This document shows positions 5,552 through 42,748 of a stretch of DNA of 62,033 nucleotides, one piece after another. Every line of letters starts with the position of its first letter. Position 1 is the first letter of the stretch. Source of the DNA: SAR202 cluster bacterium Io17-Chloro-G2 (GTDB taxonomy: Bacteria > Chloroflexota > Dehalococcoidia > Lucifugimonadales > UBA3495); the NCBI GenBank assembly GCA_002816875.1, contig MUCP01000026.1, forward strand, positions 1 to 62,033, given 5' to 3'. A model generated the notes under the pieces. That model searched no databases, had not been told where the DNA came from, and saw nothing but the letters and a program-made list of their open reading frames with translations. The position numbers and the translations under genes were made by a program.

Positions 5552-5644
5552 TAAATGTACGTTCCGTATAGCAAGATAGCGACGGCGGCCACTGGGGGAC
5601 GCCTCGCACCGGAACCTTTCTGTTCAGCGCAGACTAGAGCTCCG

Positions 5645-5830
5645 CCTTCCCGGGCAGGGTTCCTGGCTCACGAGATGAATCATATTCTGGGAGGTGGGGG
5701 TCTGCCCGCGGCAGGCCCAGGTCCCAAGAATCATCAACCCCGTACACAGTGGCGCAACCGCGGCGGATTCGCACCGCCTTCCCCAAATTAAGCCGGCTGG
5801 GCGCCTCGGGAGGACAATCTGTTGTTAATG
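5645..5830 (-). promoter_or_regulatory. Cobalamin (B12) riboswitch controlling cbiE-cobN
   Basis: The minus strand has the B12 box (GAGCCAGGAACCCTGCC, about 5652-5669) and the upstream conserved core GGGGAAGGCGGTGCGAATCC followed by GCGCCACTGTG. A promoter sits at 5877-5905 and a terminator at 5521-5551, giving the complete architecture of a B12-repressed transcription unit. The 186-nt span is approximate at its 5' end. Confidence 0.93.
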
Positions 5831-35036: not shown

Positions 35037-35172
35037 CCCCTCATCTTTCGCCATAACCAGCATTGCCGGTTTAGACGCCGGAATTAGCACCGTATCCCCC
35101 AAGTTATTACCGCTGGCGGGACCGGTTGCTAGGCTTCGTCGGGCCGTCCCCTCCGCCGTTCTGTATAAAGGG
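35037..35172 (-). promoter_or_regulatory. SAM-I (S-box) riboswitch of the mtnA-mtnP-ahcY-metK cluster
   Basis: The minus strand contains the S-box core CGGAGGGGACGGCCCGACGA then AGCCTAGCAACC, and later ACGGTGCTAATTCCGGC, with consensus spacing. P1 is closed by CCCUUUAU (35172-35165) against the complementary GAUGAGGGG (35045-35037) using two G-U pairs. With the terminator at 34999-35023 this is a full transcriptional OFF switch responding to SAM. Confidence 0.95.
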
Positions 35173-35349: not shown

Positions 35350-36447
35350 ATGCCGGCCGAATACAAAGATTGGGTATTTGACGAGTCCGAGAAGACCAAG
35401 TACCAGACTTGGATGGACCGCATAAAAACAGGCCATACCGGCACCCAGGATGTTCGTAACCAACGGATCAACTGGACTCCCTTGGAAAAACCGTTGTCCC
35501 AGTGTACCGTCAGCCTGTTCACCACCGGTGGAGTGCATCTTAGTTCCGATAAGGCGTTCGATGTGGCCAGCGCCCACGGTGATTGGACCTTTCGGCAGGT
35601 CCCTGCGAATATCGACACGGCCCACCTGGCGGTCACCCACACCCACTATAACCACGTCGACGCGGACCGGGACGTGAACTGCATGTTCCCGCTGGACCGG
35701 CTGCGGGAGTTGGCGGGCCAGGGAGTCATCGGCGGCATCGCGCCCAACGCCTATAGCATCATGGGCTTTAATCCCGACCCTGCCCGTTTGATTGAAGAGA
35801 CCGCCCCGGAGCTGGCTCGCAGGTATCAAGAAGAGGGGGCCGACCTGGTGTTGATGACCTGTGGTTGACCCATTTGCCACCGGTCCGTGGGACTGGTTCA
35901 GAATCAGATCGAGGGCGCCGGGGTCAGCACGATCTCCATGACAGTCCAACCCCATATCACCGGCTCGGTGGGAGCTCCCCGGGCGGCATACATTCGATAT
36001 CCTGCCGGCAATCAGTTGGGGGAAGCGGGCAAACCCCAACAGCAACGTGCCATAGTCACGGCGGTCCTGGAAGCGGCTTCCCAAATCGAGCGCCCCGGGT
36101 CTATCATAGAGCTCCCCTATCGTTGGCGGAGATTCCCCGTCCAGGAAGAGCCACGGTTCTTGGGAGAGTCCATGGGACCCAGACATCCCCAGGTGGAAGC
36201 CATCGGCGAATCCCTGGACCAACTGGTGAATCTCGCTAAAGATTACCAGAGCTACTTGGAAAAAAGGGTGGCCGATGCCGCGGCGGCTGAACCATCAATA
36301 GCAGGCCTGGAGCGCACATTGGCCACCCAGGCGCAGCGGGTGGAGCACCTGGTTGATGTCCTGGACGGCGAGGCGCTAGACCAACTCAGAGAGATCGCCA
36401 ACGCCATTGCTACCCTGGAACTTCGGGCCACCGGCAAGTTCGTGTAG
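35350..36447 (+). CDS. GrdB/PrdB-like reductase-family selenoprotein (in-frame TGA decoded as Sec)
   Basis: The frame from ATG 35350 meets TGA at 35866-35868 and continues open to TAG at 36445-36447, giving 365 residues with Sec at 173. Protein features on both sides belong to one family: upstream are THTHYNHVDADRDVNCMFPL and GVIGGIAPNAYSIMG, and around the TGA the sequence is VLMTCG-U-PICHRSVGLVQN, the redox-active UxxC plus histidine of the glycine/sarcosine/betaine/proline reductase selenoprotein B family. A hairpin at 35879-35897 matches a bacterial SECIS. The C-terminal ~90 residues form a helical extension (likely coiled coil). Members of the family reduce or cleave C-N bonds in some anaerobes; the substrate here is unknown. 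A plain stop codon or assembly error is the alternative, but would leave two matching halves of one protein. Confidence 0.88.
35866..35897 (+). promoter_or_regulatory. Sec codon and bacterial SECIS-like hairpin
   Basis: After UGA (35866-35868) and a 10-nt spacer, ACCGGUCC (35879-35886) pairs with GGACUGGU (35890-35897) over 8 bp (one G-U), leaving the apical loop GUG. Bacterial SECIS elements are short stem-loops just downstream of UGA with a G in the apical loop bound by SelB; distance and loop agree. Confidence 0.8.
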
Positions 36448-36468: not shown

Positions 36469-36633
36469 ATGCCCAGACGTGAAGATGAAAGATACAGGAA
36501 CCTTTCTGGGGTCCACCCGGCGGCCTGTACCTGCGTGGACTGCGTGAACAAATTTCTGAGCCGAAGGTCATCACAGACAAGGGGCCCTCTGGCCAAGCTG
36601 GGATTTTTGAGACGCCTTTTCCGGCGCAGGTGA
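36469..36633 (+). CDS. Small Cys-rich basic protein, 54 aa
   Basis: This short frame encodes 54 residues with a CTCVDC cluster at about 20-25, a His-Pro just before it, and a basic Arg-rich C-terminus ending RRLFRRR. The CxCxxC spacing is compatible with metal binding. It lies 21 bp after the selenoprotein stop and 43 bp before pncB on the same strand, so cotranscription is likely. I do not recognise a named family. Evidence is the compact fit and the non-random Cys motif only. Confidence 0.6.
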   Translation: MPRREDERYRNLSGVHPAACTCVDCVNKFLSRRSSQTRGPLAKLGFLRRLFRRR

Positions 36634-36676: not shown

Positions 36677-38056
36677 ATGAACCTACCATCGCCACATATT
36701 TCAGGCCAAAACTCTAGCCACGACTTGGGCCTCTTCACCGACCTTTACGAATTGACCATGGGCCAGGCATTCTTCTCCCAGGGCATGTTTGCCCCAGCCA
36801 CCTTTAGCCTGTTCATCCGCAGCTATCCTCCTAACCGGGGATATTTGGTGTCGGCCGGTCTGGAAGATGTCCTGGATTACCTGGAGGCATTAAGCTTCGG
36901 GCCTGCCGCGCTGGAATACTTGGAGTCCACGGGCATATTCACCAGCGATTTTCTGCAATATCTGGCGAAGTTGCGGTTCACGGGCTCGGTACGCGCCATC
37001 CCCGAGGGCAGTTTATTCTTCACGGACGAGCCCGTGCTGGAGGTGAGCGGGCCGATGATCGAAGCCCAACTGGCCGAGACCTTCATCATCAACCAGATCA
37101 ATCTTCAGACCCTATTGGCTACCAAATCTGCCCGGTGCGTGTGGGCGGCCCAGGGCAGGCCGTTATCCGATTTCTCCGCCCGCCGTGCCCAGGGGACCGA
37201 CGCCGCCATGAAGATGGCCCGTAGCAGCTACCTGGCTGGGTTTCAATCCACCAGCAACGTAATGGCCGCCCAACGGTATGGCATCCCGCCGGCCGGCACC
37301 ATGGCCCATTCCTTCATATCCAGCTTCATCTCGGAAGAAGACGCCTTCCAAGTCTATGCCGATACTTTTCCGGGCCGGACGATATTGCTGCTGGATACCT
37401 ACGACACCGTGGCGGGGGCCGAAAAGGCTGTCCGGGTGGCCAAGGCTATGGAAGAACAAGGCCATAGGCTGGTCGCGGTGCGTCTGGACTCGGGAGATTT
37501 CGACTCTTTGAGCCGGCAGGTAAGAAGAATCCTCGACGTTGCCGGCCTGGATTATGTAAAGATACTGGCCAGCGGCGGAATGGACGAATTCGAGCTGGAA
37601 ACGCTGGTTGCGGCGGGCGTTCCCATAGATCTGTTTGGAGTGGGCACCAAGGCGGGTGTGTCCGCCGACGCGCCATGGTCGGACATGGCTTATAAGTTGG
37701 TCTGTTACGACGGGCGCCCGGTGATGAAATTAAGCGAGGGAAAGATGTACCGGCCCGGGGCCAAACAGGTGTTCCGCCTTCAAGACACCTCCGGGATGTT
37801 CTCCAGGGATGTCATTGGCGCCGAAGACGAGGAACCGTTGGGCGGGACGGGTCTATTGGAAGAGGTGATGGCTGGAGGTTCGCGTACCGCGCCCAGTCCC
37901 TCGTTGGAATTGGCTAGGGAGCGATTCAACCAAGATTTTAGCCGCCTAGACGGCCGGTTCAAGGTGCTGTCTAACCCGCCTCGCTACCCGGTGGCCGCCA
38001 GTCCCGCCCTGGAGCGGCTCACGGCAAAGGTGCAGGGTGGTATTGGGCTGGAATAA
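36677..38056 (+). CDS. pncB: Nicotinate phosphoribosyltransferase
   Basis: 459 residues; salvages nicotinate to NaMN for NAD synthesis. LGLFTDLYELTMGQAFF is the family N-terminus; DFSARRAQGTDAAMKMARSSYLAGFQSTSNVMAAQRYGIPPAGTMAHSF contains the active-site histidine, and LASGGMDEFELETLVAAGVPIDLFGVGTK is the PRPP/phosphate end. It is read in the same direction as the selenoprotein. A weak terminator follows at 38066-38085. Confidence 0.95.
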   Translation: MNLPSPHISGQNSSHDLGLFTDLYELTMGQAFFSQGMFAPATFSLFIRSYPPNRGYLVSAGLEDVLDYLEALSFGPAALEYLESTGIFTSDFLQYLAKLRFTGSVRAIPEGSLFFTDEPVLEVSGPMIEAQLAETFIINQINLQTLLATKSARCVWAAQGRPLSDFSARRAQGTDAAMKMARSSYLAGFQSTSNVMAAQRYGIPPAGTMAHSFISSFISEEDAFQVYADTFPGRTILLLDTYDTVAGAEKAVRVAKAMEEQGHRLVAVRLDSGDFDSLSRQVRRILDVAGLDYVKILASGGMDEFELETLVAAGVPIDLFGVGTKAGVSADAPWSDMAYKLVCYDGRPVMKLSEGKMYRPGAKQVFRLQDTSGMFSRDVIGAEDEEPLGGTGLLEEVMAGGSRTAPSPSLELARERFNQDFSRLDGRFKVLSNPPRYPVAASPALERLTAKVQGGIGLE

Positions 38057-38127: not shown

Positions 38128-40008
38128 ATGAAAATCGCGGTCTGCGTCAAGTACGTCCCCGTAATCGCCAGAATCAAGTTCGACTATGAGCAAAAGACCA
38201 TTGTCCGGGACGGCGTGCCGTCGGAGGTCAACCCCTTCGACCTTCTGGCCTTGGTCCGGGCAGTGGAGCTCAAAAGAGGACCGCAGGACCAGGTGGTAGT
38301 CATTTCCATGGGGCCACCTCAAGCCAGAGAAGGGCTCTTGGAGTGCCTTGCCTTGGGCGCCGACCGGGGAGTGCTGCTTACCGACCGGGCCTTGGCAGGT
38401 TCTGACACCCTGGCCACCGCCAGGGCCTTATCCCTTGTGTTGCGGCGGGAAGAGCCGGACCTGATCCTTTGCGGACGAAACAGCGCCGACGCGGAAACCG
38501 GCCAGGTGGGGCCAGGGATAGCTGAATTGATGGCCATGCCCCACGTGGCGCCCGTGCGGCGGTTGGACTGGGACATTGACGGCAAAAAGATCAGGGCCGA
38601 GCGGGTCATCGACCAGGGATATCAGGTCATCGAATGCCCGCTTCCGGCTGTGGTGTGCGTCACAGAAGGTATCGCCCCGGAACTGTTTTCCAACCGGGAG
38701 CAAATGGAGGAAGCCCAGGGGAAGCCTTTGGAAGAACTTGGCTGTGCTGAGCTTTCATCAGACCTGTCCCAATTCGGCGAGCAAGGTTCCCCCACCTGGG
38801 TCCAGGACATACGCATGTTGGAGCCGGACCGTTTGGGCATCACCATAGAGGGCGGAGACCCCCAGGAAGCGGCGCAACAGATCGCCCAGGGTCTTCGGGA
38901 GCGGTTGAGCCATTTGGCGTCCCAAGAAGGGACTGGAGGACCGGCGCCTTCATCTGAAAGATTCCCTGCAAGCGTTGACCGCAGCATCTGGGTGGTGGCT
39001 GAATCGTTTCAGGGAGGATTGCTCCAGGTGACCATGGAGATGCTGGGCAAAGCCCGGGCATTGACCTCGGTGACCAAAAGCCAGGTGGCGGCGGTGCTGA
39101 TCGGCGGCCAGGGCCAAGATTCAACCGGCGCTGCTGCCCAACAGTTGTCGGATTTCGGGGCCGACAAGGTATTGACGCTAGATAATACTCGACTGGGGCC
39201 TACCTACGGACGGGCGGTCAGCGGGACGTTGGCGGCTGCCATATCTCAGGCACGGCCATACGCCGTGTTGTTCGCGGCCACGGCTGATGGCCGGGACCTG
39301 GCGTCACGCATCGCGGTCCGGCTGGAGTTGGGCCTTACCGGCGATGCCATCGACCTGGAGATCGATGATGAAGGCCGGTTGGTGCAGCTCAAACCTGCCT
39401 TGGGCGGCAACGTCGTGGCGCCCATCCTATCTAAAACTCTGCCTAATCTGGTAACCATCAGGCCGGGATTGTTGACACCCATAACCCCTGAGCCCGGGGC
39501 CCCGGTCAATCTAGAGACCATCGAATCCTCACCGGCTCAATCAGGTTCCTCTGGGGCCGATATAGATGTGATCGAAGAGCATTACCAGGAAGACATAGGG
39601 GCCACGGCATTAGCTCAAGCCCCAGTAGTCTTGGGCGTGGGGATGGGAATCGGCGGGTTGGAGGGATTGGCGGAAGCGCAAAAAATGGCCGGCTCTATAG
39701 GCGCAGTCCTAGGAACCACCAGAGACGTGACCCACGAAGGTTGGCTGCCGCATCAAATACAAATAGGCATCAGCGGCCGGAGCATCGCCCCCAGAGTCTA
39801 CTTGGCGGTGGGGATTCGCGGCGCGTTCAACCATACCGTGGGCGTTCAGCGGGCGGGGGTGATCCTGGCCATAAATTCCAACCGCCGGGCCACTATCTTC
39901 CGCTCGGCCGACTACGGCATCGTAGGAGACTGGAGGGAATATCTGCCACCGCTCGTAGAGGCATTGAAGCCGGTGCTGGCGGAGGCGTTTGGGTCGGCGG
40001 CTGATTAG
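38128..40008 (+). CDS. Fused electron transfer flavoprotein, beta-alpha (EtfBA)
   Basis: 626 residues joining two normally separate subunits. Residues 1 to about 265 are the ETF-beta type (MKIAVCVKYVPV, ILCGRNSADAETGQVGPGIAE); residues about 286-626 are ETF-alpha (IWVVAESFQGG, then GRDLASRIAVRLELGLTGDAI, and the FAD domain with AVGIRGAFNHTVGVQRAGVILAINSN and ADYGIVGDW). ETF carries electrons from acyl-CoA dehydrogenases to the quinone pool, and two such dehydrogenases follow. The FAD-binding Arg and the catalytic-style motifs look intact. An about 20-residue Gly/Pro/Ser-rich linker joins the halves. Confidence 0.93.
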   Translation: MKIAVCVKYVPVIARIKFDYEQKTIVRDGVPSEVNPFDLLALVRAVELKRGPQDQVVVISMGPPQAREGLLECLALGADRGVLLTDRALAGSDTLATARALSLVLRREEPDLILCGRNSADAETGQVGPGIAELMAMPHVAPVRRLDWDIDGKKIRAERVIDQGYQVIECPLPAVVCVTEGIAPELFSNREQMEEAQGKPLEELGCAELSSDLSQFGEQGSPTWVQDIRMLEPDRLGITIEGGDPQEAAQQIAQGLRERLSHLASQEGTGGPAPSSERFPASVDRSIWVVAESFQGGLLQVTMEMLGKARALTSVTKSQVAAVLIGGQGQDSTGAAAQQLSDFGADKVLTLDNTRLGPTYGRAVSGTLAAAISQARPYAVLFAATADGRDLASRIAVRLELGLTGDAIDLEIDDEGRLVQLKPALGGNVVAPILSKTLPNLVTIRPGLLTPITPEPGAPVNLETIESSPAQSGSSGADIDVIEEHYQEDIGATALAQAPVVLGVGMGIGGLEGLAEAQKMAGSIGAVLGTTRDVTHEGWLPHQIQIGISGRSIAPRVYLAVGIRGAFNHTVGVQRAGVILAINSNRRATIFRSADYGIVGDWREYLPPLVEALKPVLAEAFGSAAD

Positions 40009-40132: not shown

Positions 40133-40225
40133 AGCAACGGGTTTGCCGCCGGATTTCGGATGCAGCCGGGACATGTGGGGAGAAGGTTCGCGCCGGTGGA
40201 TACCGCCCCGCGGGAGAAGATTGAA

Positions 40226-41428
40226 ATGGACTTTGGTTACAGCCCGGAACAAGAAGCTCTTAGAGATGAAGTGCGTCAATTCATTGACGACTACGTTACC
40301 GACGAAGTGCAGGACGAGATAGAGAACTGGGGCGAAGGTGGACGCGGCCCTCTGGTGCGAGAGCTGTACAAGATCATCGCCGAGAGGAAATGGGTTGGTA
40401 TAACTTGGCCCAAGGAGTACGGCGGCCAAGAAGGCAACCGCCTGGACCAGTATATCGTTGAAGAGGAATTCTCCAGAGTAGGGATCAGCGTGGGTGGAGC
40501 CGGCAGCGGCGCCCCGGCCATCCTGGCGGCGGGGACCGACGAGCAGAAGAAAGAGTTCCTGCCGGGCTTGCTCAAAGGCGAGATCACCCTGGCCCTGGGC
40601 TTCACCGAGCCCCAGGCAGGGGCCGACCTGGCAGGCCTGCAGTGCCGGGCGGTGAAAGACGGCGACGACTTCGTCATCAACGGCCAGAAGATGTACACCT
40701 CTTCGGCCCACTACGCCTCCCACATATACCTGATGGCGCGTACCGACCCAGACGCTCCCCGTCACAGGGGCATTTCCATATTTTTGATTCCTATGGACAC
40801 CCCTGGGATAACCGTGCGTCCGCTGTGGACCATTCAAAGCGACCCTCGGGCGCCCAGTAAGACCACTTACGGCCAGCAACGCACCAACGAGACCTTCTTT
40901 GAAGACGTGAGAGTGCCCCGTTCCTGCATGTTGGGAGAGGAGAACCAGGGATGGTACGTCGGCGCAATGGGTCTGAATCTGGACCGTGTAGGCGCCAGCC
41001 GTTACTTGATCTCCGTGCGCCGCGACGAAGACATCATCAACTACATCAAGGAAACTGAATTTGACGGGGACTCACCAGCTCAAGACCCTGCCGTGCGGGA
41101 TAAGCTGGCCGAGCTTTGGATAGAAGCCCAGGTGTGCCGGCTGATGACCATGCGCAGCATGTCGTTGGTCAACCGGGACGTCAACTTCACCTATGAAGGC
41201 TCGGCGGAGAAGGTCTGGGCGCCGGAGCACGGTGTCCGCACCACAGAGACTATAACCCAAATCCTGGGGCCCTATGCCCAATTGCTGCACGGGTCCGACG
41301 AAGCCATCGAAGACGGCTTGTTTGCCCACAACGTCATGGGCGCGTTCCAGTCGGGCATCAACCACGGCAGCGTGCAGGTCATGCGGGACCAGGTGGCCCG
41401 GCGTGGACTCGGGATGCCGCGAGGGTAG
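40226..41428 (+). CDS. Acyl-CoA dehydrogenase family protein (large/catalytic type)
   Basis: 400 residues from ATG 40226, which follows GGGAGAAG and gives the familiar MDFGYSPEQEALRDEVRQF start. The substrate/FAD loop LALGFTEPQAGADLAGLQCRA and the C-terminal helix bundle (around RLMTMRSMSLVNRD) are conserved. The catalytic-base position was not resolved by eye. It probably oxidises a CoA thioester and hands electrons to EtfBA just upstream. A longer frame from 40160 adds non-conserved residues and lacks a ribosome-binding site. Confidence 0.92.
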   Translation: MDFGYSPEQEALRDEVRQFIDDYVTDEVQDEIENWGEGGRGPLVRELYKIIAERKWVGITWPKEYGGQEGNRLDQYIVEEEFSRVGISVGGAGSGAPAILAAGTDEQKKEFLPGLLKGEITLALGFTEPQAGADLAGLQCRAVKDGDDFVINGQKMYTSSAHYASHIYLMARTDPDAPRHRGISIFLIPMDTPGITVRPLWTIQSDPRAPSKTTYGQQRTNETFFEDVRVPRSCMLGEENQGWYVGAMGLNLDRVGASRYLISVRRDEDIINYIKETEFDGDSPAQDPAVRDKLAELWIEAQVCRLMTMRSMSLVNRDVNFTYEGSAEKVWAPEHGVRTTETITQILGPYAQLLHGSDEAIEDGLFAHNVMGAFQSGINHGSVQVMRDQVARRGLGMPRG

Positions 41429-41572
41429 GGGCGCCGGGTATACATCAGGCGGCCGGCCCGTCCAGGGTGGTCTGCTCTGTCCGATAACCGCGTTTTTTCA
41501 TGCGCTGCCCGGGGGTTCCCCCCGTGGGCGCCCACGTCTTTGTAAATCTTTAAAGGGACATGTTTTATAGCG

Positions 41573-42748
41573 ATGGACGTACTTCTCAGCGAAGAAGAGC
41601 AAATGGTCAAAAACCTGGCCCGGGAGTTCCTGGAGGCCGAATGCACTCCTGCCCTGGTCCGGGAAATGGAACTAGACGAGCTGGGATATCCGCCGTCCTT
41701 GTGGCAGCAGATGGCGAATCTGGGTTGGTTCGGGATGGCGCTCCCAGAGACCCATGAAGGCCAGGGCCTGCCCTTGACCTACCTGGGAATAATTCTGGAA
41801 GAGGTGGGTCGGGCCATCGCGCCGGTGCCCTTCCATTCAACCATGGTCGCCGCCTTGACCATCGTCAGCGATGGATCAGAAGAGCAAAAGCGGGAAGTGT
41901 TGCCCAAGGTGGCCGCCGGCGAGTTGATTCTGACCTGGGCTTTTACCGAACGAAATCCCAAATACCTGCCGGAAACGATCCACACCGAGGCCAAGAAAGA
42001 CGGCGGCGATTACGTGATCACCGGCGCCAAGCTGTTTGTAGACAATTTCAACGTCGCAGAGAAGTGCCTGGTGGTGTGCCGGACATCCCCGGAATCGTCC
42101 TCAAGTAAAGGGATTTCCCTGTTTATGGTAGACACCCTCAGCCAGGGCATAACCCATACGCCGCTAGTTACCATTGCCAAAGACAAGCAGAGCAAGGTTA
42201 CATTCGATCAGGTCAGGGTCCCGGCCGCGAATATGATTGGCGAGCTAGACCAAGGATGGCCCATCGTCGAGAACATGCTGGACCGGGGCACGGCCCTTCT
42301 GTGCGCGCAGATGGTAGGCGCCGCCAGGAAGGACGCTGAGTTGGGCATAGAGTACGCCAAGGGCCGGGTGGCCTTCGGCCGGCCCATCGGATCATTTCAG
42401 TCAATCCAGCACATGTGCGCCGATATGACGATCTGGGTCGACGGCGGACAGATGTTGACCTTTGAGGCCCTCTGGAAGATGGACCAGGGCCTTCCAGCCA
42501 GTATCGAAGTGTCCCAGGCCAAATCTTTCTGCAATGAGAAATGCGAAGCGGCTGTGCGCTCATCCCAGGTGATCCATGGCGGCATCGGTTTCATGATGGA
42601 ATTCGACCTTCACCTGTGGTTCCGCAGGGTTTCAGCCTGGTCCATGCGTATGGGCACCAGCTTCGAACACCGGGCAAGGATCGCCCAGATGCTTATAGAC
42701 CAACCGGGGAGGGTGCGCCTCGGAATGCCGTTGACTCCGGTTGCCTGA
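41573..42748 (+). CDS. Acyl-CoA dehydrogenase family protein (second subunit/paralogue)
   Basis: 391 residues. MDVLLSEEEQMVKNLAREFLEAE starts a standard acyl-CoA dehydrogenase N-terminal domain; LTWAFTERNPKYLPETIHTEA is a divergent form of the usual EP-x-x-GS loop. The C-terminal half has YAKGRVAFGRPIGSFQSIQHMCADM and SSQVIHGGIGFMMEFDLHLWFRR. Divergent paired paralogues of this sort often form heteromeric acyl-CoA dehydrogenases, as in steroid side-chain degradation of actinobacteria; that pairing is inference. The 144-bp gap before it has no gene. Confidence 0.92.
   Translation: MDVLLSEEEQMVKNLAREFLEAECTPALVREMELDELGYPPSLWQQMANLGWFGMALPETHEGQGLPLTYLGIILEEVGRAIAPVPFHSTMVAALTIVSDGSEEQKREVLPKVAAGELILTWAFTERNPKYLPETIHTEAKKDGGDYVITGAKLFVDNFNVAEKCLVVCRTSPESSSSKGISLFMVDTLSQGITHTPLVTIAKDKQSKVTFDQVRVPAANMIGELDQGWPIVENMLDRGTALLCAQMVGAARKDAELGIEYAKGRVAFGRPIGSFQSIQHMCADMTIWVDGGQMLTFEALWKMDQGLPASIEVSQAKSFCNEKCEAAVRSSQVIHGGIGFMMEFDLHLWFRRVSAWSMRMGTSFEHRARIAQMLIDQPGRVRLGMPLTPVA

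Follow-up and report, generated by a model that had tools for sequence, protein, structure and literature searches.

Does the TGA that interrupts a conserved reading frame in a SAR202-type member of the Chloroflexota end a protein, or is it read as selenocysteine (Sec), and what kind of protein would the frame then encode? We address these questions for a locus on contig MUCP01000026.1 (SAR202 cluster bacterium Io17-Chloro-G2, assembly GCA_002816875.1), the whole analysed stretch of which, 62,033 nucleotides in length, is referred to here as the window. The explanation that we favour with considerable confidence, derived from sequence comparison, is that of one Sec-decoded gene of the PrdB family, encoding a UxxC redox protein that probably acts independently of PrdA.

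Gene and reading frame

A single forward-strand frame of 365 codons extends from ATG 35350 to TAG 36445–36447, its sole interruption being an in-phase TGA at 35866–35868. These coordinates match those of a first-pass annotation, which had described the gene (35350–36447) as one selenoprotein hidden in two frames. Read through, the frame yields a 365-residue product whose residue 173 is Sec (U173), in the motif TCG-U-P-I-C. Both halves fall into one family, as had been claimed, with model TIGR04483 matched at positions 19–147 before the TGA and 151–235 after it, that is, in consecutive register. Standard open reading frame (ORF) calling returns exactly the two short proteins that had been foreseen for a conventional caller, one of 172 aa (35350–35868) and one of 186 aa (GTG 35887–36447). 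It was fair to add that such a caller misses the active site, although as a Sec protein the family is already well known (PMC2398784; PMC1088965).

The two-piece ORF call is what one would obtain if the TGA were a real stop, the locus being either a pseudogene or the source of two proteins translated separately from ATG 35350 and GTG 35887. At the base composition of the window, a random open run of 192 codons has a probability of about 0.001. Moreover, protein-level selection is equally strong on both halves of the gene, with dN/dS at about 0.1: against the nearest relative (L008, 88% identity), the ratio is 0.10 before the TGA and 0.12 after it, and in a second pair (L009 and L010) it is 0.14 before and 0.11 after. 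In both pairs, the differences on either side of the TGA are biased toward third codon positions. Similar ratios and third-position differences beyond the TGA are unlike what would be expected of a frame lying past a true stop, and such equal purifying selection argues against both forms of the real-stop explanation.

The selenocysteine column

Judged by their matching lengths, loci L007–L011 are on the same contigs as the loci of genomes G009, G001, G024, G014, and G010, respectively, and independent relatives were counted accordingly. TGA occupies the Sec column in all window-clade members that were read (five genera plus locus L012), and the same TGA is kept in relatives down to 56% identity. 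The aligned column, which the first-pass annotation had put forward as a check, holds either Sec (TGA) or Cys in homologues: TGA in 25 of 28 and Cys in three of 28 from a wider sample of the phylum. Genuine clostridial and enterococcal PrdB genes have TGA at this very column, and the homologues from Paraclostridium and Roseomonas have Cys. Within family f57, selA was detected in the Sec-bearing genomes G139 and G174 and went undetected in the Cys-bearing G107 and G237; G213, from another family, has Cys at the column yet retains selA. Conservation of the TGA across relatives and genuine PrdB is difficult to reconcile with a functional stop.

That some homologues have Cys at this position would also fit a sequencing or assembly error, in which TGA stands for a TGC or TGT codon. 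We consider this an exceedingly remote prospect, as the same TGA recurs in many independent assemblies, including that of a relative assembled into a single contig. An altered genetic code, under which TGA would specify another residue such as Trp, would likewise leave the frame open. TGA is, however, the ordinary stop of neighbouring genes (e.g. those encoding adenosylhomocysteinase [AHCY] and the acyl-CoA dehydrogenase ACAD2), which argues against genome-wide reassignment, and the column in homologues is occupied by TGA or Cys codons and never by the Trp codon TGG; an altered code is therefore just as far-fetched. Elsewhere in the window, in-frame TGAs flanked by long open stretches (21082 and 55929 on the forward strand; 50252, 41072, and 8726 on the reverse strand) overlap or oppose long ORFs and were regarded as shadows of these.

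A conserved hairpin and the decoding machinery

The bacterial SECIS element is the signal bound by SelB. A SECIS-like hairpin of 8 bp with a GUG loop, placed by the first-pass annotation 10 nt past the UGA, was indeed located there, at 35879–35897 (+), its arms being 35879–35886 and 35890–35897 and its loop 35887–35889. Over 31 distinct hairpin sequences, 97.2% of cells are paired, compared with 8–48% in slid controls, and two pairs have changed on both sides. The covariation score of 0.205 exceeds that of shuffled alignments (0.153 ± 0.011) and was reached by none of 500 shuffles, although kinship among the sequences inflates such tests and the region is also under protein constraint, so that the conservation of the hairpin is strong evidence while not being independent proof. 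The folding energy of the hairpin region in the window is by itself unexceptional (z = −0.72), and Sec and Cys homologues were not separable by folding energy alone; support for the hairpin thus comes from its conservation. This conservation counts against a real stop, as does the position of GTG 35887 inside the hairpin loop: initiation at this codon would leave the conserved U-P-I-C-H-R-S out of the product.

The first-pass annotation had also expected a full selB/selC/selD/selA set elsewhere in the genome. Its selC part was found, as a tRNA-Sec gene with anticodon TCA (G000:C28:7992–8084, 66.9 bits); the assembly that contains the window, 56% complete, yielded no selA, selB, or selD. Their lack in this assembly is the second point that a real-stop explanation can claim. 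Among relatives, selB exceeds the cut-off in 86 of 99 and selD in 36 of the 40 searched, and, of the six further genomes in the family with a window-type gene, five have selA (G001, G006, G010, G014, and G024). The same-genus genome G001, in 320 contigs, has selA and selD above the cut-off, with selB and tRNA-Sec falling short of it. Genome G014, a single contig of 4.0 Mb with a 61%-identical, TGA-containing gene, encodes tRNA-Sec, selA, selB, and selD. An in-frame TGA was also seen within selD itself in nearly all genomes of the order that were searched.

Taken together, the conserved TGA column, the alternation of Sec and Cys, the conserved SECIS-like hairpin, and the tRNA-Sec in the same genome back the reading of the first-pass annotation: what looks like a gene broken by TGA is almost certainly one intact gene whose apparent stop is read as Sec. 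A real stop is correspondingly very improbable. The comparative evidence indicates that the ribosome reads UGA 35866 as Sec using the downstream hairpin and tRNA-Sec, and that the product is a PrdB-family protein, 365 residues long, whose redox pair is Sec-x-x-Cys. On the basis of PrdB chemistry and the UxxC motif, we further infer that, during catalysis, the U173 selenolate may act on a small organic substrate, either as nucleophile or as reductant, and that a Se–S bond between U173 and C176 may form and then be re-reduced by thiols or thioredoxin.

Affiliation with PrdB

The first-pass annotation had named the product ‘GrdB/PrdB-like’, of which ‘PrdB-like’ is the better half. The joined protein matches the PrdB model TIGR04483 over residues 41–260 with an E-value of 1.2e-61, whereas GrdB-type models match far more weakly (1e-12 to 1e-15); these comparisons place the protein with PrdB and not with GrdB. 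It shares membership in the GRDB superfamily (PF07355; 39.4 bits against a gathering cut-off of 22, E = 6e-10) and the UxxC motif with GrdB, selenoprotein B of glycine reductase (PF07355, TIGR01917), but the PF07355 alignment covers solely model positions 211–346 of 347.

The PrdB-homologous core (residues 42–260; 35473–36129, +) is 40–42% identical to the plasmid-borne PrdB of Ligilactobacillus, Terrisporobacter, Enterococcus, and Acetoanaerobium, and has the same Sec column and UxxC motif. In a tree of 67 sequences, the window clade is one supported group (99/92) inside a larger supported group (98/95) that also holds genuine PrdB, yet it stands apart from PrdB; the Cys label requires at least two changes on this tree. 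Further differences from PrdB are the motif itself (U-P-x-C instead of U-G-T-C) and the length, since PrdB has about 241 residues and lacks the extra N- and C-terminal parts of the window protein. Similar to the latter in being PrdB-like with no prdA annotated adjacent are alphaproteobacterial proteins of about 300 residues named ‘Glycine/sarcosine/betaine reductase selenoprotein B family protein’ (Roseomonas and Haematobacter plasmids), but their identity is 25–28% and they have Cys at the Sec column (C-P-V-C in Roseomonas). The window protein is thus almost certainly, by homology, a marine-type Chloroflexota relative of the D-proline reductase subunit PrdB.

Is the protein a D-proline reductase subunit?

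PrdA is the pyruvoyl subunit that binds proline. The core identity to genuine PrdB and the tree group shared with it would be expected if the protein were a true subunit of D-proline reductase with a PrdA as its partner. However, the PrdA/GrdE family PF09338 was not found in G000 (the window's own, incomplete genome), G009, G010, G014 (one contig), or G024, and of 59 relatives overall, 50 gave no match; two carriers of the gene, G001 and G006, do have PF09338 proteins, encoded on other contigs. No prdA was seen adjoining the gene in the relatives that were read, and no prdA, prdD, or proline racemase gene is beside it, whereas in Ligilactobacillus, Terrisporobacter, and Enterococcus prdA is located two genes upstream of prdB. 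The TIGR04483 score, 208.2 bits, also remains below the equivalog cut-off of 300 bits. The missing PF09338 in most carriers and the missed cut-off argue against the name D-proline reductase, and we regard a PrdA-dependent proline reductase as unlikely. Because PrdA was not found in most gene-bearing genomes, the selenoprotein instead probably acts without PrdA, on a substrate other than that of proline reductase.

The C-terminal extension

Two long helices are predicted in a C-terminal extension that the window clade carries (residues 280–312 and 320–360; 36187–36429, +) and that is absent from genuine PrdB. In one relative (L069, G084:C154), the counterpart of this extension is a separate ORF directly downstream (1519–1794), which fits the C-terminal part being a fused subunit. 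This helical hairpin probably serves assembly or partner binding. The AlphaFold model, built with seven sequences, has a mean pLDDT of 73, and a Foldseek search with it found nothing at E ≤ 0.001; among solved structures, none is related by sequence. Structural matches to common alpha/beta arrangements were middling, and hence no function was drawn from the fold.

Genomic neighbourhood

The selenoprotein gene is followed in the window by a 54-aa ORF, a nicotinate phosphoribosyltransferase gene (36677–38056, +), a gene for a fused (beta–alpha) electron-transfer flavoprotein (ETF; 38128–40008, +), and two acyl-CoA dehydrogenase-like genes (40160–42748, +). The phosphoribosyltransferase gene also stands between the selenoprotein and ETF genes in L007/G009. 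An ETF gene is near the selenoprotein gene in genera g1, g9, and g10, accompanied by both acyl-CoA dehydrogenase genes in g9 and g10 and located directly behind the selenoprotein gene in g10. This arrangement is a weak hint that the substrate of the redox chemistry may be linked to CoA or derived from an amino acid. The ETF gene is nevertheless family-wide and not specific to selenoprotein carriers; in G006, G014, and G024, it is not close to the selenoprotein gene, and in g14 the latter is found among ABC-transporter-like genes. The link to acyl-CoA chemistry is therefore suggestive at most. Sec-dependent reductases that act independently of PrdA, have a helical subunit fused at the C-terminus, and work with an ETF/acyl-CoA dehydrogenase system in SAR202-type Chloroflexota may form a class of their own; we deem this tentative proposal rather doubtful, and if correct, it would amount to a selenium-dependent reaction not described before.

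The 54-aa ORF (36469–36633, +) contains the motif HPAACTCVDC and is kept at the same place in L008; it was not seen in L007 or L011. Upstream, a divergent cluster behind a SAM riboswitch (RF00162, 60.9 bits; 35038–35171, −) comprises genes for mtnA, MTAP, a rhodanese, adenosylhomocysteinase, and SAM synthetase. A functional tie to the methionine-salvage genes mtnA and MTAP was considered and rejected, because they are divergently transcribed and were seen beside the selenoprotein gene only within the genus. The window also contains two cobalamin riboswitches (RF00174), at 66–274 (−; 104.3 bits) and 5636–5824 (−; 48.3 bits).

Distribution and relation to earlier surveys

PrdB-type UxxC selenoproteins were abundant in the Sargasso Sea, with 42 genes (PMC1088965), and the Global Ocean Sampling (GOS) survey recorded 235 Sec and 110 Cys sequences of ‘proline reductase PrdB’ (PMC2398784); PrdB is also listed in the current selenoprotein catalogue (PMC13188914). 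The proteins from both surveys resemble the window protein in being marine, PrdB-type, and UxxC-containing, and in having Sec with some Cys homologues, but they are metagenomic sequences. Sec decoding, the PrdB-type family, and its abundance in seawater metagenomes are hence already known, and what is added here is the host assignment, a clade of its own, the helical extension, and the lack of PrdA. Within the literature library that was covered, a search combining SAR202 and selenoproteins gave no match, and the SAR202 genome papers that were checked make no mention of selenium.

In seawater surveys, few selenoproteins are commoner than those of PrdB type, and where PrdA is lacking, proline reduction cannot be assumed; the point of most interest is the PrdA-less spread over SAR202-type Chloroflexota. 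A defined clade, partly conserved neighbours, and the Sec/Cys contrast make the function testable. As gene callers split the family at its catalytic residue, its spread is easily underestimated.

At least one homologue is present in 65 of 99 related genomes, nearly always with the in-frame TGA. Viral contigs yielded no relative of the window protein. One clade member, L012 (JACZXM010000167.1), is carried by a contig labelled Acidobacteria and groups with the Chloroflexota genome G006, possibly reflecting a mis-binned contig or a transfer. Several genomes, G003 and G020 among them, contain up to six PrdB/GrdB-like genes each, nearly all with one in-frame TGA, and, judged from these genes, the order has a large paralogous set of selenoproteins.
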